Shown here: piece after piece, positions 2,568 to 11,493 of the stretch
How the letters are laid out: each line of letters opens with the position of its first letter
How positions within the stretch are numbered: position 1 is the first letter of the stretch
Source: Bacteroidia bacterium
Lineage (GTDB): Bacteria > Bacteroidota > Bacteroidia > AKYH767-A > OLB10
Assembly (NCBI GenBank): GCA_025450095.1
Contig: JANWID010000053.1
Coordinates: 1 to 11,493, forward strand
Direction of reading: 5' to 3'
Length of the DNA: 11,493 nt
Notes under the pieces: model-generated
Told to the model about the DNA's origin: nothing
Seen by the model: the letters and a program-made list of their open reading frames with translations, nothing else
Databases searched by the model: none
Made by a program: the position numbers and the translations under genes

Positions 2568-3764
2568 TTACAGAATTCCCAGAGGTGAAATAAATCCGAT
2601 ATTAATTCTTCCGGTATCATAATCTCTGGCACCGAACCGTGATTTTGCATAATCGGAGTATTGGTAAACTCTTCCTACATAATTTACAAAAAATCGCAGA
2701 TTCAGAGTAGACCACGGATAATATTCAACGACCGGAATAAATCCATATGCAGTACGGATATTATTTTCGTCGGTAATATTCTCCGGATCCTGATCACTGT
2801 TGTTCCATTCTGCAATATCCATCATACCAAATAATGCAACATTAATTTTCGGGGAAACCCGGTAATGCAAATGCACCCAATGTCCGATATAGAGTGTATT
2901 TGCCAAAGAGAACGGATAGAGGCTGTCAGGTACCGTTTCACTAACAATAGTTGTTCTGTCCAGATCTTCATCGCTCCATTTAAAATCATAGGCAACCACA
3001 AATTTGCCGAGCGTTAATTCTGTACCCAAAGCAATGTAGTGCATGTTGGCATTTTCAGCTTCATTGAAAAGCGAATAAGACCAGATTGTTTTGACTTTAT
3101 TGTTGAACAAGCTGCCTCGCCAGTTGGCTACAAATGCCAAAGGAGTTTTCGACTCGGTGAAATTAGGTTGATCGCCATACAATTCATTGAACGATTTTGT
3201 TCGCGAGTCTAATGCCTGAACGGTAAATTGATTTTTGGGACCCGGAGTATAAGTAAATCCGACACCAGTCAGAAAGTTATCGGCAAATTCAATTATGTCT
3301 GAATACTCATAGATATCAATCGGGTTGTAATCAAATTCAAATGCACCCCAATCGGCACACATTTTACCTCCGGAAATGCTGAATTTTTTACTGATATCAA
3401 ACCGGAGAAATGCAAGATCCACGGAGCGGCTCAGGTTCTCAATTGATTCAGATGTTTGTGCCCTGGTATAACGATCGCGGAAACGGAAATATACTTTTTC
3501 GTGGACCTGTCCGCGAATCTCCAGTCTGAACTGCTCATTTTTAAACCTGCTTTGCGTATACTCACCATCTACGAATTCATTTCTCAACCCAAACTGCATA
3601 TTAGCAATTACACTTACATTTTTAAGTAGTCCCTGCTTTGCTTCCGGAATAATCGATGGGTAGTATGTGGTATCACCTGCCTGGCGCTCTGTTTTTTGTG
3701 CCATGAGCAGGCAGGGAAGACTAACCAATACCAGTATCCAAAGTTGATATTTATATCCGTTCAT
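2568..3764 (-). CDS. Outer-membrane porin, porin O/P-like
   Basis: This 398-residue protein is an outer-membrane beta-barrel, probably a porin of the phosphate-selective porin O/P type common in Bacteroidota; the substrate cannot be told from the family name. The signal peptide spans residues 1-22 (hydrophobic core about 8-20, Leu-Met-Ala) before Gln23. Residues 76-110 (FRLEIRGQVHEKVYFRFRD and following) and 115-180, with WGAFEFDYNPIDIYEYSD near 139-156, are the stretches I recognise from this family. The C-terminus is a run of strands ending GFISPLGIL, so the last residue is Leu rather than Phe. The start lies 22 bases after the asparaginase stop, so the gene is the last of a three-gene operon (aspartase, asparaginase, porin). 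The context suggests it admits asparagine, aspartate or other dicarboxylates into the periplasm; that is inference. Confidence 0.75.
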   Translation of the reverse strand: MNGYKYQLWILVLVSLPCLLMAQKTERQAGDTTYYPSIIPEAKQGLLKNVSVIANMQFGLRNEFVDGEYTQSRFKNEQFRLEIRGQVHEKVYFRFRDRYTRAQTSESIENLSRSVDLAFLRFDISKKFSISGGKMCADWGAFEFDYNPIDIYEYSDIIEFADNFLTGVGFTYTPGPKNQFTVQALDSRTKSFNELYGDQPNFTESKTPLAFVANWRGSLFNNKVKTIWSYSLFNEAENANMHYIALGTELTLGKFVVAYDFKWSDEDLDRTTIVSETVPDSLYPFSLANTLYIGHWVHLHYRVSPKINVALFGMMDIAEWNNSDQDPENITDENNIRTAYGFIPVVEYYPWSTLNLRFFVNYVGRVYQYSDYAKSRFGARDYDTGRINIGFISPLGIL

Positions 3765-3786
3765 ATGGTTTTTGATTTACTTATAA

Positions 3787-4863
3787 TTAATATTCTATAA
3801 ATAATTTCTGTAATTCATCCCTGTTGGTTTTGTTTTTCGCAAGTGCCAACATCAAAAGCACCCTGGCTTTCTGAGGATTCAATTCATCTGAAGATACGGT
3901 TCCAAAGTCGGCATCAACAATTTCTCCTTTAATTAAAACTGCACCTATTGGAACGCGGGATGCTCTGACAACCGGTACTCCTGCTTTGGTTGCCTTCTGA
4001 GCAGCTTCCAGTGTACCCGCTGTCATATTACCATCGCCTACACCGGCAATCACGATTCCTTTTGCCCCAGCCTTAACCATTAAGTCAATCAAATCAGGTG
4101 ACATATCGGCGCAAGCATAAACGATATCAACACGTGGCAGTGATGTTAATCCAGTTACAGAAAATTCACTGTTCATTGTGTGACGACCGCTGGGTTTATG
4201 AAAAAATAACACATCGCCAAAAATTACTGTGCCAATCATTCCTTCTTGTGGAGACTGAAAAGTTTGCACCGGCGTAGTGATCATTTTCTTAACGTCTCTT
4301 GCTGCATGAATTTCATCATTCATTACCACCATCACACCATATCCTTTTGCATCCGGATGTGCTGCAAGAGCAACTGCATTATACAAATTCAATGGGCCTT
4401 CAGCACTTAATGCTGTAGAAGGGCGCATGGATCCTGTCAAAACAACAGGCTTATCACTCTTTACGGTCAGATTAAGGAAATAAGCAGTTTCTTCCTGGGT
4501 ATCGGTACCGTGTGTGATCACAATACCATCACAATCAGCTTGAGCCAGCAGGGTATTGATTCGATTAGCCAGATCGAGCCAAACTTTCACACTCATATCC
4601 TGGGAACCCACATTTGCAATCTGCTCACCTTTCAAATTTGCGAGTTTCCTGATATTGGGAACGGCATCTATCATAGCATCAATTTTAACCTGTCCCGACG
4701 TATATGCGGAGCCGGTAGAACTAACACCTGCACCGGCGATAGTACCACCTGTCGCCAGGATCGTAATGTTTTTCATTTTGCCTGTCTGTCCAAATCCGAG
4801 TGTACAGATAGTTAAGCCCGTGGCTAAAAGAATACTTCTTAAATAATAGGCATTTGCTTTCAT
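3787..4863 (-). CDS. ansB: Type II (periplasmic) L-asparaginase
   Basis: It hydrolyses L-asparagine to L-aspartate and ammonia. The 358 residues align through their whole length with E. coli AnsB after a signal peptide of about 25 residues (hydrophobic core 9-24, Gly-Phe-Gly before Gln26), so the enzyme should be periplasmic. Catalytic residues, with the E. coli mature numbers in brackets: nucleophile Thr41 (T12) in ILATGGTIAG at 36-45, Tyr54 (Y25), Ser87 (S58) in NVGSQDM, Thr120-Asp121 (T89-D90) in THGTDT, and Lys193 (K162) in RDVKK. MRPSTALSAEGPLNLYNAV (146-164) and LNPQKARVLL near the C-terminus are also typical. All key residues are present. It lies 41 bases after the aspartase and 22 bases before the porin, all on the minus strand. 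Its product, aspartate, is the substrate of the neighbouring aspartase. Glutaminase side activity is possible and cannot be judged from sequence. Confidence 0.95.
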   Translation of the reverse strand: MKANAYYLRSILLATGLTICTLGFGQTGKMKNITILATGGTIAGAGVSSTGSAYTSGQVKIDAMIDAVPNIRKLANLKGEQIANVGSQDMSVKVWLDLANRINTLLAQADCDGIVITHGTDTQEETAYFLNLTVKSDKPVVLTGSMRPSTALSAEGPLNLYNAVALAAHPDAKGYGVMVVMNDEIHAARDVKKMITTPVQTFQSPQEGMIGTVIFGDVLFFHKPSGRHTMNSEFSVTGLTSLPRVDIVYACADMSPDLIDLMVKAGAKGIVIAGVGDGNMTAGTLEAAQKATKAGVPVVRASRVPIGAVLIKGEIVDADFGTVSSDELNPQKARVLLMLALAKNKTNRDELQKLFIEY

Positions 4864-4904
4864 AGCTTTAGTTGTTATAAGAATATTTGAATTTAGGTTA
4901 AATA

Positions 4905-6407
4905 CTATTGAGGACTGGTCATTTTAGCCGGATCCATCAGATCTTTGATCTGTTGTTCGGTCAGAAGTTTTTTCTCGCGAATGAGCTCAAGAATACCCTT
5001 ATTGGTTTCCAGTGCCTCTTTTGCAAGCTCAGTTGTTTTGTCATATCCCAATACCGGGTTCAATGCTGTTACAATACCAACACTTCTTTCCATATAGTTT
5101 TTCAAAATTGCCTCATTTATGGTTATGCCTTCAATACATTTTGTCCGGAATATCGGTAATGTTTTATACAACAAAGCTTGTGATTCAAAAATGGCCACAG
5201 CAACAACGGGCTCGTATGCATTAAGCTGAAGCAATCCATCCTGTGAGCCCATGGTGACCGTCGCGTCATTACCAATTGCTTTATAGCATACCAGGTTCAT
5301 CAGTTCAGGCATTACCGGGTTAACCTTCCCGGGCATTATAGAGGAACCAGGTTGCATTGCAGGTAAGTTGATTTCGAATATCCCTGCCCGTGGTCCTGAG
5401 GCCAGGAAAATGAGATCACTGCTGATCTTTGATAAAGTGATTGCAAAATTTTTCAATGCCGAAGAATACATTACAAAACCCTGCATGCTGGAAGTAGCTG
5501 CAATCAGATTAGATGATAGTTTCATTGGTTTGCCTGTGATTTTTGCAAGGTGTGTAGCACACTTCTCGGCATAACCTGGTGATGCTGTAATTCCGGTCCC
5601 GATCGCTGTGGCACCCATATTCTCCTCATAGAGGTATGACTCAGCATGCACCAGTGCTTCGATAGCTGCATCCAACTGCGCACCGAAACCATGAAATTCC
5701 TGGCCAACAGTCATGGGTACTGCATCCTGTCCTTCCGTACGACCCATTTTAAGAATTTTGCTGTAATCATCTCCCTTTTTATGAAAGGCTGCAGATAACG
5801 CTTTTGCCTCTTTTATCACCTTATCATTATGAAGCAGGATAGCAACGTGAATCGTAGTTGGATATACGTCATTAGTCGATTGACCCATGTTGAGATCATC
5901 GTGAGGCTCGATGAATTGATACTCACCTTTCTTTTTTCCCATCATTTCCAATGCAATGTTTGCCAGCACTTCATTGGCATTCATATTAGCTGACGTTCCT
6001 GCTCCTCCCTGGTAGAGATCTGTTAAAAACTGGTCATGGTATTTCCCATCCATCACTGCCAGACAGGCTTTCTCAATAGCATCATACCGCTCTTTTTTCA
6101 TCCGTCCGATATCCGTGTTAGCGCGTGCAGCAGCAAGCTTAACCATTGCATAAGCTCTTACATAATCCGGATAAAAATTTGTTTTTACTCCGCTCACCTG
6201 GAAATTCTCAAGGGCGCGTGCAGTCTGTACACCATAATAGGCTTCATTCGGAATTTGTTTTGTTCCTAGTAAATCCTTTTCAGTTCTTGTCTGGGCAATA
6301 CTAGTTCCAGTAACAGCAATCAAAACAATTGATAAAACATTTCTTGCGAATTTCACCGGATTCATGCCCGGTAACATAAATAGATAGGGTTTGTTTCTCA
6401 TGATCAT
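4905..6407 (-). CDS. aspA: Aspartate ammonia-lyase with N-terminal signal peptide
   Basis: It converts L-aspartate to fumarate plus ammonia. The core from about residue 42 (EKDLLGTKQIPNEAYYGVQT) aligns with E. coli AspA. GAGTSANMNANEV (136-148) marks an aspartase rather than a class II fumarase. Active-site residues by Bacillus AspB numbering (offset 37): Thr138, Ser177-Thr178-Asn179, Thr224, catalytic Ser355, Lys361 and Asn363 in GSSIMPGKVN (354-363). Glu225 sits where AspB has His188 and E. coli has Gln in GRTQLQDAVP. The first 38 residues have no counterpart in cytoplasmic aspartases. They read as a Sec signal: Lys19 and Arg22, hydrophobic core 23-34, Ser-Ile-Ala before Gln39. Met1, Met3 and Met15 (ATG at 6365) could each start it, and Met15 gives the most compact signal peptide. 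It is first in the operon with asparaginase and porin. The enzyme family is very secure; export is a strong prediction. Confidence 0.93.
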   Translation of the reverse strand: MIMRNKPYLFMLPGMNPVKFARNVLSIVLIAVTGTSIAQTRTEKDLLGTKQIPNEAYYGVQTARALENFQVSGVKTNFYPDYVRAYAMVKLAAARANTDIGRMKKERYDAIEKACLAVMDGKYHDQFLTDLYQGGAGTSANMNANEVLANIALEMMGKKKGEYQFIEPHDDLNMGQSTNDVYPTTIHVAILLHNDKVIKEAKALSAAFHKKGDDYSKILKMGRTEGQDAVPMTVGQEFHGFGAQLDAAIEALVHAESYLYEENMGATAIGTGITASPGYAEKCATHLAKITGKPMKLSSNLIAATSSMQGFVMYSSALKNFAITLSKISSDLIFLASGPRAGIFEINLPAMQPGSSIMPGKVNPVMPELMNLVCYKAIGNDATVTMGSQDGLLQLNAYEPVVAVAIFESQALLYKTLPIFRTKCIEGITINEAILKNYMERSVGIVTALNPVLGYDKTTELAKEALETNKGILELIREKKLLTEQQIKDLMDPAKMTSPQ

Positions 6408-6442
6408 TATTATTAAAAATTAAATATGAATTTCATAAGGGG

Positions 6443-6476
6443 TCAGGTTTCTCATGAAATAAAACATGAGCCCTGA
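6443..6476 (-). promoter_or_regulatory. Hairpin in the aspartase leader
   Basis: CTCATG (6451-6456) pairs with CATGAG (6465-6470) around an 8-base AT loop. TCAGG (6443-6447) pairs with CCTGA (6472-6476) beyond a small internal loop. The structure ends about 36 bases upstream of the aspartase ATG at 6407. It could affect translation or mRNA stability. No T run follows on the minus strand, so it is not an attenuator of the usual kind. Confidence 0.35.
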
Positions 6477-6496
6477 ATCATTGTTATTCAAAGGCT

Positions 6497-6507
6497 ATTG
6501 GCTATTG
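6497..6507 (-). promoter_or_regulatory. CAATAGCCAAT motif, copy 1
   Basis: Reads CAATAGCCAAT on the minus strand. The same 11 bases occur on the plus strand at 6891-6901, so each operon has one copy oriented with its own direction of transcription. This copy overlaps a tandem duplication of GGCTATT (6493-6499 and 6500-6506). It is a possible shared regulator site; chance is not excluded. Confidence 0.3.
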
Positions 6508-6697
6508 CCAGGAAGCGAATAGGGATAATGTTTAGCAGATTCCGGATATTATAGATAAAACTCTTTTCATATCATCTATGTTTAAGAATTCCGTTTTCCG
6601 ATTGAAGCAGTATTGTTTCCTCTCATAAAAAATGAATTTTCCCGGTGTTAATTCTGTCTCAATTAATAATGAGGATGTAAAAGCAATATGATTATAT

Positions 6698-6705
6698 CAA
6701 ACGTA
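6698..6705 (-). promoter_or_regulatory. Possible -7 element for the aspartase operon
   Basis: The minus strand reads TACGTTTG, a perfect TAnnTTTG. I find no clear TTG at the usual 17-23 base spacing upstream (6723-6732). If used, transcription would start near 6693 and give a leader of about 285 bases before the aspartase ATG. It is the only perfect -7 match I found on the minus strand in this region. Confidence 0.35.
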
Positions 6706-6890
6706 TAAATAATTAATCAAAAAAAGAAGCATTTAGAGCGCTTTGTATATATAGTTGATTATCAATTCTATGAATTTATGCCCGATTTAAAAACACATAT
6801 TCCCAACATTTAGGACTAAAATTAAAAGTGCAATTTTCTAATTCTTTTGGCTGACAAACTAACTCATAACAAATCATAACTTAAACTTCA

Positions 6891-6901
6891 CAATAGCCAA
6901 T
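6891..6901 (+). promoter_or_regulatory. CAATAGCCAAT motif, copy 2
   Basis: Plus-strand copy of the 11-base motif found inverted at 6497-6507. It lies about 90 bases upstream of the -33 element of the transporter promoter. Confidence 0.3.
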
Positions 6902-6940
6902 CAGGATTTAATAATTTTATTTTGCTCTGGTAACTTTATC

Positions 6941-6958
6941 ATTACAGATCAGTGTAAT
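6941..6958 (+). promoter_or_regulatory. Palindromic operator candidate ATTACA-N6-TGTAAT
   Basis: The arms ATTACA (6941-6946) and TGTAAT (6953-6958) are exact reverse complements around GATCAG. The spacing fits a dimeric helix-turn-helix regulator binding one face of DNA, such as a CRP/FNR-family or GntR-family protein. Its centre is about 67 bases upstream of the predicted start of the transporter transcript, a usual distance for an activator site. The regulator is not encoded in the window. Confidence 0.45.
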
Positions 6959-6982
6959 TATTGAGTGGAATGGAAAGTGATT

Positions 6983-7013
6983 TTTGAATTGATTGAGTTT
7001 TATTATACTTTTA
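6983..7013 (+). promoter_or_regulatory. Bacteroidota-type promoter of the transporter operon
   Basis: TTTG at 6983-6986, a 19-base spacer, then TACTTTTA at 7006-7013. This matches the TTTG-N19-TAnnTTTG pattern at all but the last base. Transcription should start near 7017 and leave about 50 bases of leader before the ATG at 7070. It lies directly downstream of the palindrome at 6941-6958. Confidence 0.6.
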
Positions 7014-7069
7014 GATTATTAATACCTGGTTTTTAATCTGCCGATTCCATTTTAATAACGGTCCCCGCC

Positions 7070-8458
7070 ATGGAAGAAAAAAAAGTGACAGGAAATAAGG
7101 CAAGGATCCGGTCACTATTATTATTTCTTTTGTGCATAGGTATAGCCCTGGGGTTGGTGTCGATCATTCGTGTTCCTGAATTCACCACATCTCAATTGTA
7201 TGTTTTATTTCTACTTTTCTTTGCGATTGGCTTGTGGGCCACGGAAGTGATTCCACCTTTTGCTACCGGGTTGCTGATAATTGCATTCCTGGTTTTCTCA
7301 CTTGGTAATCCGAATTTTAACCCGGAACCACAGGATATCGCAAAATATGCAAATACATTTTCCAGCAGCGTAATCTGGCTCATGTTGGGCGGTTTTTTCC
7401 TGGCTTCTGCAATGAGCAAAACAAAACTTGATGAAGCATTATTCTCGTTTACAATCAGGCTTTCTGGAACAAACCCGCGCAACCTGGTTATCGGGCTCAT
7501 GACAACAACAATGGTAGCATCCATGTTGATGTCCAATACTGCTTGTACTGCTATGATAATTGCTGCAATCACGCCTTTACTCACTTCTGTTGGGGCAAAA
7601 TCCGGAATCGGTAAAGCAGTTTTGCTGGGCGTACCCATTGCTGCATCTACCGGTGGGATGGCAACCCTGATCGGTACAGCCCCAAACGTAATTGCCGCAG
7701 GGGCTTTGGAAAATGCGGGCATTCCAATTAGTTTTCTGGAATGGATGGTATATGGTTTACCAATTGCTTTAATCATTACAACTGTTTGTTGCACCACGCT
7801 GCTCCTGGTTTATGTCAGAGATAAAACTCCAATTTCCCTGGAGTTTATGAATAGTGCAAAAGAAGTAATGTCAGCTGAGATAAAATACCAGAGAAACATT
7901 GTACTGGTCATTATAGTTGTAACTGTTTTGATGTGGCTCACCGGATCACTGCACGGAATAAGTGTAGCTGGTGTTTCGGCAATTCCAATTGTCTTTCTGA
8001 CGCTGTTCAGGGTTCTCACCGGAAAAGACGTACGTGCGTTACCGTGGGATACGCTCTTTCTCGTGGCAGGCGGACTTTCACTCGGAGTGGCACTGAAGTA
8101 TAACGGGTTATTGGATTATTACGGAGCACAGTTAACAGCGTTACATGTTGGAAAGGTTGCAACCATGTTCATATTTGCATTTGCAACAATGGCAATTTCA
8201 AATGTTATGAGTCATACAGCAACGGCTACTGTATTAATTCCATTAGGCATTTCAATTCTGCCAAATGTTAAAACTGAAATGGCAATGACCATAGCTCTAG
8301 CCTCATCAACCGCCATGCTGCTTCCTGTTTCTACTCCACCAAATGCAATTGCATTCAGCACCGGGTTAATAAGGTTAAAAGATTTTCGTATGTGTGGAAC
8401 GCTTACCGGTATTTTAGGTCCGATTATGATTGTGCTTTGGGTCTTGTTGTTAAACTGA
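7070..8458 (+). CDS. DASS/SLC13-family anion (dicarboxylate) transporter
   Basis: This 462-residue inner-membrane protein belongs to the divalent anion:Na+ symporter family, which imports C4-dicarboxylates such as succinate, fumarate or malate, or in some members sulfate. It has about 11 hydrophobic segments after a short positively charged N-terminus. Diagnostic motifs are: LWATEVIPPFATGLL (55-69); the first SNT motif, Ser155-Asn156-Thr157, in MLMSNTACTAMIIA; STGGMATLIGTAPNVIAAG (193-211); WDTLFLVAGGLSLG (326-339); the second repeat's Ser381-His382-Thr383 in NVMSHTATATVLIP; and LLPVSTPPNAIAF (417-429). The second SNT motif reads SHT, so a substrate- or Na+-contacting Asn is replaced by His. 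The gene is first in an operon with the Dcu-type carrier 61 bases downstream and is divergent from aspartase, which points to a C4-dicarboxylate substrate. Cation coupling (Na+ or H+) cannot be settled from sequence. Confidence 0.9.
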   Translation: MEEKKVTGNKARIRSLLLFLLCIGIALGLVSIIRVPEFTTSQLYVLFLLFFAIGLWATEVIPPFATGLLIIAFLVFSLGNPNFNPEPQDIAKYANTFSSSVIWLMLGGFFLASAMSKTKLDEALFSFTIRLSGTNPRNLVIGLMTTTMVASMLMSNTACTAMIIAAITPLLTSVGAKSGIGKAVLLGVPIAASTGGMATLIGTAPNVIAAGALENAGIPISFLEWMVYGLPIALIITTVCCTTLLLVYVRDKTPISLEFMNSAKEVMSAEIKYQRNIVLVIIVVTVLMWLTGSLHGISVAGVSAIPIVFLTLFRVLTGKDVRALPWDTLFLVAGGLSLGVALKYNGLLDYYGAQLTALHVGKVATMFIFAFATMAISNVMSHTATATVLIPLGISILPNVKTEMAMTIALASSTAMLLPVSTPPNAIAFSTGLIRLKDFRMCGTLTGILGPIMIVLWVLLLN

Positions 8459-8519
8459 TTTACCTGATGATATTTATTGAATCAAAAAAATTGCGATTAA
8501 CAAATAAACAGATTTCATT

Positions 8520-9875
8520 ATGATATTTACACTACAACTTGTCGTATTACTGATCTGCATTTTTATCGGAGCGCGTATGTCGGGCATCGGCCTGGGTGTG
8601 ATGGGCATGATTGGATTACTGATCCAGATCTTCGTATTCGGCATGCAGCCTGTTGATCCGCCACTTGAAGTGATGCTGATCATACTCAGTGTTGTTACTT
8701 CAGCTGCAGCATTGCAGGCAGCAGGAGGAATGGATTACCTGGTTGGCATTGCAGGTAAATTACTTCGCCAGCATCCGGGACAAATCACTATTCTCGGACC
8801 CATAGTAACATATCTCTTCACCTTGTTCGCAGGCACTGCACACATTTCCTATTCCATATTACCGATTATTGCTGAGGTTTCTACCAAAGCCAGAATTCGT
8901 CCTGAAAGGGCGCTGAGTATGAGTGTAACAGCCGCGCATATGGGAATTACGGCAAGCCCGGTTTCGGCTGCCTCTGCCGCGTTACTAACGGTACTGGCAG
9001 CTTCAGGAATAGGCCTTTCCGATATTCTCACTGTTTGCATTCCATCGACTTTAATCGGAGTAATTGTAGGTGTACTGGTGGTAATGAAAAAAGGAAAAGA
9101 TCTGGATAAGGATCCTGAATTTCTTGAAAAAATGCGTGACCCGGATTTTGCTGCAGCAATAAACGGAACATCGGGGTCCTCTGAAACGCAGCAGAAAAAA
9201 GGCGCCGTGAAATCAGTTTTCTTTTTTGCACTGGGTGTTGCAACGGTTGTTGCAATGGGATCGTTTCCGCAATTGCTTCCTGATTTTTCAGAAGTAGAAA
9301 ATTTCAAACCTGGTTTTGCTGTTAACGACTCCGGCAATGTTCAAATGCCATCCATGATCATGATTGTAATGCTGGCGGTTGTTGCATTGATAATACTATT
9401 CGCTAATACCAAGGCCAGTGATGTTACTAAAGCGAGTTTATTCAGCTCCGGTGGACAGGCAACCATTTCTGTTTTTGGAGTGGTATGGATGAGCGGAACT
9501 TTCATGAATCACAATTTTGCATTGATCGAAGGAACACTAGGATCCATCGTAGCATCGTATCCGTGGCTTTTTGCATTGGCATTATTCACACTAAGCATTT
9601 TACTTTTCAGCCAGGCTGCAACAGCAAAAGCACTTATGCCATTGGGTTTAGCACTTGGGTTATCGCCGGCATACCTCATCGCGATTTTCCCTTCTGTAAA
9701 TGGCCATTTTTTCATACCGGGTTACCCTACATTACTAACTGCTATACAATTCGACCGGACCGGTACAACTAAAATCGGCAAGTATGTGCTTAATCACAGT
9801 TTCATGTTACCAGGTATAGTCACTGCAGCTGCAGCAGTAACTGCCGGATTGCTGATCACCTCATTTATTAATTGA
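8520..9875 (+). CDS. dcuB: DcuA/DcuB-family anaerobic C4-dicarboxylate transporter
   Basis: It is an inner-membrane carrier that exchanges fumarate, malate or aspartate for succinate. Its 451 residues align end to end with E. coli DcuB (446). The N-terminus MIFTLQLVVLLICIFIGAR closely follows DcuB, and further conserved blocks are QPVDPPLEVMLII (43-55), LQAAGGMDYL (65-74), AGTAHISYSILPII (104-117), IRPERALSMS (126-135), MGITASPVSAA (141-151), IPSTLIG (174-180), KGKDLDKDPEF (191-201) and the C-terminal AIQFDRTGTTKIGKYVLNHSFMLPG (408-432). The cytoplasmic loop around 190-230 is hydrophilic and precedes a long hydrophobic half. The family assignment is secure; DcuA versus DcuB is less so. It follows the DASS gene by 61 bases and is separated from the next gene by 56 bases with an internal promoter. 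In this setting it probably imports fumarate made by aspartase and exports succinate. Confidence 0.92.
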   Translation: MIFTLQLVVLLICIFIGARMSGIGLGVMGMIGLLIQIFVFGMQPVDPPLEVMLIILSVVTSAAALQAAGGMDYLVGIAGKLLRQHPGQITILGPIVTYLFTLFAGTAHISYSILPIIAEVSTKARIRPERALSMSVTAAHMGITASPVSAASAALLTVLAASGIGLSDILTVCIPSTLIGVIVGVLVVMKKGKDLDKDPEFLEKMRDPDFAAAINGTSGSSETQQKKGAVKSVFFFALGVATVVAMGSFPQLLPDFSEVENFKPGFAVNDSGNVQMPSMIMIVMLAVVALIILFANTKASDVTKASLFSSGGQATISVFGVVWMSGTFMNHNFALIEGTLGSIVASYPWLFALALFTLSILLFSQAATAKALMPLGLALGLSPAYLIAIFPSVNGHFFIPGYPTLLTAIQFDRTGTTKIGKYVLNHSFMLPGIVTAAAAVTAGLLITSFIN

Positions 9876-9876
9876 A

Positions 9877-9909
9877 TTTGGAATTCCCGATTAATATTAA
9901 CTAAGTTTG
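9877..9909 (+). promoter_or_regulatory. Internal promoter upstream of the second porin
   Basis: TTTG at 9877-9880, a 21-base spacer, then TAAGTTTG at 9902-9909, a perfect TAnnTTTG. Predicted transcription starts near 9913, leaving a leader of about 18 bases before the ATG at 9932. The porin may thus be expressed apart from the transporters as well as by read-through. Confidence 0.55.
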
Positions 9910-9931
9910 AAGTTCAGCTAAAATAACTCCA

Positions 9932-11200
9932 ATGAAATACCTTAATTATTTAATATTTGGTTGTTTTTTATTTTCTCCTATGGTGGGGTTCACTCAAGTA
10001 GAAAAGCCTCCCGTTCCGGATGGTACACAGGGTGAAGTTTTTCGTCCAAAGGATACGGATTCAACCGGAAAGGAAATTCCATCAATGCGTCTCAATGAGT
10101 GGGACGGCCCGCTATGTTCCATGAAATTTGGAGGTGGAATTTTATATGAATATGCGGGGTTCGTTCAGGATGACATCGCGAAAGAACAGGTTAAAGCAGA
10201 ATCAAATTTCAAATTACGCGATGCCCGTTTTACCTTATCGGGAAAGTTTAAGACTAAACGGGAGATTACGTTCAAGATGGGTATCATGTACGATGGAAAC
10301 GACAAATCGTGGTATATGCGTGAAACCGGGATACTGATTAAAATGCCTGAAATGTCAGGACATATTTTTATCGGCAGAACAAAAGAAGGATATTCACTTA
10401 GTAAAATTATGGTTGGTTATGCGATCTGGAATACGGAACGATTGGCTGCAATTGATATAATTCCAATTCTTGCAGACGGAATTAAATATATGGGATATCT
10501 GCCAAAACAGCGCATATTATGGAATGTTGGCGGATTTATTGACTGGATTTCAGACACACAAGCGTTTTCGACTTTTGAATACCAGGGTTCCGGAAGAATA
10601 GCATATCTTCCGTTTTATAGTGGCATTTATAAAACTGTTTTACATATAGGCGGTAATTATCGTTATGGAAAAGTTAAAGACGGACAACTCAAAGTCCGGT
10701 CGAAACCTGAAGTTTCTGGAGGTCCTTATTTTGTTGATTCAGGAACAATGAATGTAGATTATACAAATAGCGTGGGTGGAGAACTTTATTACCGCTCGGG
10801 TAGATTTTTATTCGGTTCCGAATTTCATGCTCACATGATGCACTCCCCTGAAAATGACAATCCTGTTTTTAAAGGAGGAGAAGCTTTTGTTGCCTGGACG
10901 TTCACCGGGGAAGTAAAACCTTACTATACTTCCAGTGGCATTTTCGGATTTATCAAAGTTAAAAGATCAGTATTTGACGGTGGCTTCGGAGCTTGGGAAG
11001 GAATATTGCGTTTCTCCAACCTGGACCTCCAGGATCAATTAGTAACAGGGGGTGATTTCTGGAGAATTACGCCTGCTTTAAATTGGTTTCTTTCCAATAA
11101 TATAAAATTGTTTTTATCGTATGGTTACTGCGTTCTTAACAGGTATGAAAAAGAAGGCACAACCAATATATTCCAGGCCAGGATGATGTTTTCATTATAG
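9932..11200 (+). CDS. Porin O/P-like outer-membrane protein
   Basis: This 422-residue protein is probably an outer-membrane porin of the porin O/P type. The signal peptide covers residues 1-21 (Lys2, hydrophobic core 5-19, Gly-Phe-Thr) before Gln22. A proline-rich, charged linker follows (about 23-60), then a barrel that starts near FGGGILYEYAGFVQDD (67-82). Family-like strands include FKLRDARFTLSGKFKTKREITFKMG (93-117) and the C-terminal GAWEGILRFSNLDL, GGDFWRITPALNWFLSNNIKLFLSYG and FQARMMFSL. The protein ends in Leu. It is about as long as the other porin in this window (398) but shares little visible sequence with it, so they are not a recent duplicate pair. It sits 56 bases after dcuB and is the third gene of the transporter operon, with its own promoter. 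A role in letting dicarboxylates or amino acids into the periplasm is inferred from context only. Confidence 0.75.
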   Translation: MKYLNYLIFGCFLFSPMVGFTQVEKPPVPDGTQGEVFRPKDTDSTGKEIPSMRLNEWDGPLCSMKFGGGILYEYAGFVQDDIAKEQVKAESNFKLRDARFTLSGKFKTKREITFKMGIMYDGNDKSWYMRETGILIKMPEMSGHIFIGRTKEGYSLSKIMVGYAIWNTERLAAIDIIPILADGIKYMGYLPKQRILWNVGGFIDWISDTQAFSTFEYQGSGRIAYLPFYSGIYKTVLHIGGNYRYGKVKDGQLKVRSKPEVSGGPYFVDSGTMNVDYTNSVGGELYYRSGRFLFGSEFHAHMMHSPENDNPVFKGGEAFVAWTFTGEVKPYYTSSGIFGFIKVKRSVFDGGFGAWEGILRFSNLDLQDQLVTGGDFWRITPALNWFLSNNIKLFLSYGYCVLNRYEKEGTTNIFQARMMFSL

Positions 11201-11350: not shown

Positions 11351-11493
11351 ATGGCAACAACGAACGAAGATCTGTTTAAAAACCTTATTTCTCATTGTAA
11401 AGAATATGGTTTTATTTTTCCTTCCAGTGAAATTTATGACGGCCTCAGCGCGGTTTATGATTATGGTCAGTACGGAGCTGAATTAAAGAAGAA
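11351..11493 (+). CDS. glyS: Glycyl-tRNA synthetase, 5' part (cut by the window end)
   Basis: The 47 complete codons visible encode the start of a class II, homodimeric-type glycine-tRNA ligase, which charges tRNA-Gly in the cytoplasm. The opening block, [16 protein letters not shown] then [16 protein letters not shown] and [15 protein letters not shown], follows the conserved N-terminus of this family (FPSSEIYGG... DYGP.G.ELK in well-known members). There is no signal peptide. The frame stays open to the window edge, where the last codon is incomplete. It is a housekeeping gene with its own promoter directly upstream and is probably unrelated to the asparagine cluster. The frame was translated by hand from 11351; the symbol glyS is used in the sense of the single-chain enzyme (also called glyQS). 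Confidence 0.88.

Follow-up and report, generated by a model that had tools for sequence, protein, structure and literature searches.

In described bacterial gene clusters, asparagine is converted to fumarate by an asparaginase and an aspartase working in turn. In Actinobacillus succinogenes, Asuc_0140-0142 (AnsB-AspA-DcuA) comprise a periplasmic asparaginase II, an aspartase and a Dcu carrier; the portion of that report dealing with the cluster places the aspartase in the cytoplasm and has the carrier import aspartate (PMC10634366). The L-asparagine operon of Corynebacterium glutamicum also encodes an asparaginase and an aspartase that lead sequentially to fumarate, and there, as far as the relevant section of the paper goes, the amino acid is taken up first (PMC9145765). 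The locus considered here lies in an 11,493-nucleotide stretch of a Bacteroidia bacterium genome (contig JANWID010000053.1), the whole of which is referred to as the window. Its gene content is of the same kind as that of the A. succinogenes cluster as described, with porins and a DASS-family carrier in addition, but its aspartase bears a leader, so that the compartment of the second enzyme appears to differ and fumarate would be made before import. In Escherichia coli (aspA-dcuA, dcuB-fumB), an aspartase is found beside a Dcu carrier, as in the window; E. coli AspA, however, has no leader and carries the motif GRTQLQDA, and no asparaginase, porin or DASS gene occurs in the stretch viewed. A Bacteroidota cluster, L106 (L099 is the same genome region), contains the same three families, Dcu, AspA and AnsB, in one run, yet its aspartase likewise lacks a leader and has GRTQLQDA, unlike that of the window.

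Overall, the window probably encodes an extracytoplasmic asparagine- and aspartate-stripping module. The porins would admit asparagine and aspartate across the outer membrane, the exported asparaginase would convert asparagine to aspartate and ammonia in the periplasm, and the exported aspartase would there convert aspartate to fumarate, releasing ammonia a second time. Fumarate would then be taken up through the inner membrane by the DASS and Dcu carriers, leaving the C4 skeleton as the only part to reach the cytoplasm. The sequences themselves establish the family identities, the leader, the linkage of the genes, the clade and its signature; from them we infer the periplasmic location, the aspartase activity, the porin and carrier substrates and the direction of flow. 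The core of the scheme, in which asparagine becomes fumarate in the periplasm and the C4 compound is then imported, appears well supported by its conservation. In general, the fumarate most likely provides carbon and energy to respiring bacteria. The original prediction for this DNA also had both enzymes exported and acting in the sequence asparagine to aspartate to fumarate, and the leaders and family matches agree with this proposal. Its sequential periplasmic pair and its co-localization are thus retained. The divergent unit that it proposed is not, and the electron-acceptor role that it raised is one possibility among others.

The gene neighborhood carries much of this argument. Scanning of genome contigs with the window aspartase yielded 113 confirmed loci, of which 80 were kept, and 83 loci of the exported type were compared in all (the window, L001-L080, L089 and L092; L090 and L091 were left out). 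At least 6 kb of flanking sequence is present on both sides in 58 of these; the window has less and is not among them. The control consists of 22 of 25 cytosolic-aspartase loci, kept at a laxer flank of at least 5 kb (L102, L108 and L128 were dropped), and three loci stand outside it: L070, where a cytosolic-type copy has an asparaginase next to it, along with L010 and L066, which contain both aspartase types. Within 6 kb of the aspartase, an asparaginase gene is found in 58/58 exported loci and 1/22 controls, and a porin of any sort (Porin_O_P of either kind, or DcaP family) in 53/58 and 0/22. The DcaP family by itself accounts for 35/58 loci versus 0/22 controls, a Dcu or DASS carrier is nearby in 23/58 versus 1/22, and a glutaminase-like gene in 14/58 versus 0/22. 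Since the asparaginase linkage is kept in all 58 exported loci and in a single control, chance association is excluded; no probability is attached to the counts because the loci are related. Across all 83 loci, the asparaginase gene is adjacent to that of the exported aspartase in 74 and on the same strand in 77. The co-localization that the original prediction put forward as a test is therefore conserved, for the asparaginase as for the porins, and the gene content constitutes a conserved module across Bacteroidota, Acidobacteriota, Ignavibacteriota and Krumholzibacteriota.

The leader of the window aspartase, MNPVKFARNVLSIVLIAVTGTSIAQ, occupies approximately residues 15-39 and is built like a Sec signal peptide, while the catalytic domain starts near residue 40 in alignments to solved aspartases (PDB relatives 6wng and 1j3u). 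Possible translation starts occur at codons 1, 3, 11, 15, 18 (GTG) and 29 (TTG), and then only at codon 71, where initiation would remove the beginning of the fold. Because codons 30-70 contain no start codon, translation from any of the earlier starts takes in at least the last part of the hydrophobic leader, and any start up to codon 18 yields a complete signal peptide.

The aspartase also differs from its cytosolic counterparts at a residue of the active site. In the part of a study of Bacillus AspB that describes this site, His188 and Asn142 interact with the substrate amine group, Thr187, Met321, Lys324 and Asn326 line the carboxylate pocket, and Ser318 is catalytic (PMC11744663). The equivalents of Thr187, Met321, Lys324, Asn326, Asn142 and Ser318 are identical in the window aspartase, all within ungapped stretches of the AspB alignment, and Glu225 aligns to His188, a position occupied by Gln in E. 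coli and 6wng. This glutamate is part of the motif GRTE[GML]QDA, which is present in the best aspartase of the window (as GRTEGQDA) and of each of the 80 loci (81/81). GRTQLQDA is instead found in leaderless copies at the same loci, in further copies from 16 regions and in E. coli AspA, and one copy has GRTHLQDA. By a crude script rule with a hydrophobicity cut, signal peptides were scored in 79 of 84 distinct Glu-type aspartases and in 0 of 34 of the Gln/His type; four of the five failures resemble leaders by eye, and the fifth, L040, has none. In a tree of 104 rows, built by a quick method with no bootstrap and omitting L046 as too short, 84 Glu-type rows are split from 19 others on one branch (SH-aLRT 100, length approximately 1.1). 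The Glu group in both the tree and the leader count is set by the motif itself, so that these comparisons test the leader and the tree and not the motif. They point to a separate, apparently exported aspartase lineage whose hallmark is Glu at the amine contact. In the L046 genome, an in-frame TGA lies within the matched aspartase stretch.

Forty-four host genomes, several of them incomplete metagenome assemblies, were reached via 44 of the 80 loci. A cytosolic-type aspartase (47-52% identity) is also encoded in 14 of these, and none was found in the remaining 30. A fuller form of the proposal would be that of a dedicated periplasmic aspartase lineage with an amine site re-tuned by Glu, in which all nitrogen is shed as ammonia, only fumarate is imported, and most of the examined hosts have no other aspartase; in this combined form we give the proposal even odds.

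The best PDB relatives of the window asparaginase are 1wsa and 6rud. By eye, its leader, MKANAYYLRSILLATGLTICTLGFGQ, resembles a signal peptide, but it falls just below the crude hydrophobicity cut, making it one of only two failures under a similar rule that 74 of 76 asparaginases pass. The recurrent glutaminases begin with leader-like stretches, as judged by eye; this family (PF04960) and the DcaP family were each identified by Pfam on one representative. Both window porins exceed the PF07396 gathering score and their models match solved porins. For porin B, the AlphaFold2 model (pLDDT 76.6) has OprP and OprO as its closest solved folds, and a profile match to OprO was obtained (E 7.8e-8). 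Sequence and profile searches of the PDB with porin A gave no match, and its model is closest to a tied set led by DcaP, with OprO, BpsOmp38, Omp32 and OmpF-type porins. Porins are recurrent partners of the exported aspartase, among them members of a family for which the representative tested is DcaP. The DcaP paper PMC12338516 gives no support for fumarate or aspartate as DcaP substrates, since fumarate, aspartate and succinate are absent from its main text. The DASS protein aligns to VcINDY over residues 36-447 and is likely a sodium-coupled symporter for dicarboxylate uptake. The second SNT motif of VcINDY is SHT in the window DASS, SHTA in L001 and SNTA in several other loci.

Table 1. Features of the window that belong to the proposed module, with a family model matched by each gene.
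Feature	Position	Strand	Model match
Outer-membrane porin A, Porin_O_P family, 398 aa	2568-3764	minus	PF07396, 107.3 bits (cut-off 20.9)
Type II L-asparaginase, predicted exported, 358 aa	3787-4863	minus	TIGR00520, 429.7 bits (cut-off 314.3)
Aspartate ammonia-lyase, predicted exported, 500 aa	4905-6407	minus	NF008909, 647.1 bits (cut-off 510)
Divergent intergenic region between arms	6408-7069		
DASS-family inner-membrane anion symporter, 462 aa	7070-8458	plus	TIGR00785, 244.8 bits (cut-off 198.6)
DcuA/DcuB-family C4-dicarboxylate carrier, 451 aa	8520-9875	plus	TIGR00770, 477.8 bits (cut-off 331.35)
Outer-membrane porin B, Porin_O_P family, 422 aa	9932-11200	plus	PF07396, 67 bits (cut-off 20.9)

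Several observations weigh against the interpretation as a periplasmic stripping module. The window Dcu is nearly equidistant from E. coli DcuA (40.4% identity) and DcuB (40.0%), lies among long branches in the tree and is not assignable to either type, and a carrier of the DcuA type would take aspartate. Carriers are also far from universal near the exported aspartase, since among the 83 loci neither Dcu nor DASS is nearby in 45, some of them on short contigs, whereas 23 have only Dcu, 7 have only DASS and 8 have both. The window aspartase misses the cut-off of the equivalog model TIGR00839 (603.2 versus 681.2 bits), and Glu at the amine-contact position could alter its substrate. Cytosolic-type aspartases, too, occur beside an asparaginase (L106, L070) or a Dcu carrier (L102). 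Finally, Flavobacterium supplies 28 of the 80 locus titles, and the loci are not independent; and a relative at L040 (7461-8918), which adjoins an asparaginase gene at a contig end, is the sole Glu-type aspartase without a leader.

Among the other explanations, the one that survives best retains the same steps outside the cytoplasm and differs in their purpose: Dcu would swap periplasmic fumarate for succinate, and fumarate would act as the terminal electron acceptor. A Dcu gene is present in the window and adjoins the exported aspartase in 31 of 83 loci, and the AnsB-AspA-Dcu clusters of A. succinogenes serve fumarate respiration, according to the part of the report concerned with them (PMC10634366). 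In the Dcu tree, moreover, the 24 Bacteroidota proteins linked to an exported aspartase stand apart from 7 whose link is to a cytosolic aspartase, to both types or to neither, but the support for this split is just 80/93 on the exported side (100/99 for the 7), and three exported-linked Dcu from other phyla sit on long branches in other parts of the tree. Respiration with oxygen seems open to most hosts, because a COX1-family protein exceeds the cut-off in 43 of 44 genomes; the COX1 family also includes nitric oxide reductases. Dcu exceeds its cut-off in only 22 of the 44 genomes, lying beside the exported aspartase in 18 of those 22, whereas DASS does so in 35 and SDF carriers in 43, and at least one of the three is found in all 44. 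The SdhA model TIGR01811 matches 44/44 genomes, 43 of them over the cut-off, and cannot separate quinol:fumarate reductase from succinate:quinone reductase. The original suggestion that fumarate might be imported to accept electrons, with succinate leaving in exchange, is accordingly not demonstrated. Respiration of fumarate is possible for this window, as it is, via Dcu exchange, in some hosts, and as the purpose of the module as a whole it is a tentative alternative that we consider unlikely.

It is more doubtful still that the substrate of the exported lyase is another amino-dicarboxylate, the enzyme's amine site having been changed by Glu225, with the asparaginase supplying or accompanying that substrate. 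In favor of such a shift are the fixed substitution at the amine-contact position and the length of the stem branch, roughly 1.1 changes per column. However, the window enzyme retains the residues equivalent to those of the alpha-carboxylate pocket, together with Asn142 and the catalytic serine, the linkage to asparaginase is near universal, and the carriers belong to C4-dicarboxylate families. Lastly, the leader might be neither cleaved nor exported, or the enzyme might moonlight outside, as a surface aspartase does in Haemophilus, with catalysis mattering in the cytoplasm only; the leaderless relative at L040 would suit this idea, but it is very improbable given the leaders in 79 of 84 Glu-type enzymes by the crude rule and in four of the five failures by eye, the variation in leader letters with retention of form, and the linkage to exported partners and porins.

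Unlike the gene content, the layout of the window is not a general feature. All six open reading frames of the original prediction were recovered at their positions with strong family matches, and they account for six of the eight long genes in the window. Intergenic gaps within each arm measure 22-61 bases, and the divergent gap measures 662 bases. This arrangement had been read as a mirror-image divergon, yet among the 83 loci both carriers lie opposite the aspartase in the window only. Dcu is on the aspartase strand in 30 loci and opposite in the window alone, and DASS is on the aspartase strand in 13 and opposite in three (the window, L078 and L079). In the nearest relative, L001, the genes for Dcu, aspartase, asparaginase, porin A and DASS all run in one direction. 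The layout could not be traced in near kin, because only 1 of 149 sampled genomes of the order of L001 matched at E 1e-180 or better, and that one is the starting genome itself. The divergent layout of the window is incidental. Sigma-70-like sites in the window number 34, versus 33.0 in shuffles, and the divergent gap contains no well-spaced promoter of the Bacteroidota type, good spacing being found only at 9902, before porin B; the search used the promoter form generally recognized for Bacteroidota. The sequence argues neither for nor against co-regulation of the arms.

The 80 loci come mainly from Bacteroidota; Acidobacteriota, Ignavibacteriota and Krumholzibacteriota contribute a few. In a sample of 395 genomes from the phylum, 7 have the exported type at 65% identity or more, three of these being starting genomes, and the module is thus a rare accessory trait. 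The aspartase tree mixes families, for example grouping Prolixibacteraceae and Lentimicrobium with Chitinophagaceae and Hymenobacteraceae, a pattern that would fit transfer between lineages. No close plasmid relative was found: the 363 plasmid records with aspartase matches are all below 60% identity. Literature searches of open-license papers returned, among the matches listed, no paper on an exported or periplasmic aspartase.

Additional genes recur around these loci. Upstream of the six-gene set in the window are a PorG-like gene and a DUF481 gene, the latter at 1413-2423 and transcribed convergently to porin A. The neighborhood of the exported aspartase, taken to 6 kb, includes a DUF481 gene in 12/83 loci (9/58 with full flank), compared with 0/22 among the controls. 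At the other end, a gene at 11351-11493 runs past the end of the window and is, by eye, a glycyl-tRNA synthetase candidate. Rfam and tRNA scans of the window gave no matches. In L010 and L066 (8.5-16 kb), a GRTQ cytosolic-type aspartase adjoins a GRTE exported-type enzyme in a run with asparaginase, Dcu and porin genes. At 12.6-14.8 kb of L047, as in other loci, an exported glutaminase, a leader-bearing Amidohydro_2 protein and an outer-membrane-like protein recur together. A TPR-repeat regulator-like gene lies upstream in 21 loci (for example, L047:6712-8289), often divergently and mostly in Flavobacterium. A different aspartase architecture, in which an N-terminal cyclic-nucleotide-binding domain (PF00027) and the lyase are joined in a single protein of approximately 625 aa, occurs at L093:732-2606 and L094:1212-3095; L095 resembles these fusions by eye, and 20 matches listed in the phylum survey (47-53% identity, frames of 615-655 codons) may be of the same kind.

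Some Bacteroidota and a few other bacteria thus appear to degrade asparagine to fumarate and ammonia outside the cytoplasm. In described clusters, as far as the pertinent part of the A. succinogenes work indicates, the aspartase is treated as cytoplasmic and the neighboring Dcu is read as an aspartate carrier (PMC10634366). If the aspartase is exported, the imported compound would instead be fumarate and both nitrogens would remain outside. The Glu signature would offer a simple sequence test for the exported type, as well as a residue to probe for kinetic change. Should the proposal prove true, it would change the carbon and nitrogen bookkeeping of these bacteria, imply release of ammonia to their neighbors and alter the annotation of "aspA-dcu" clusters.

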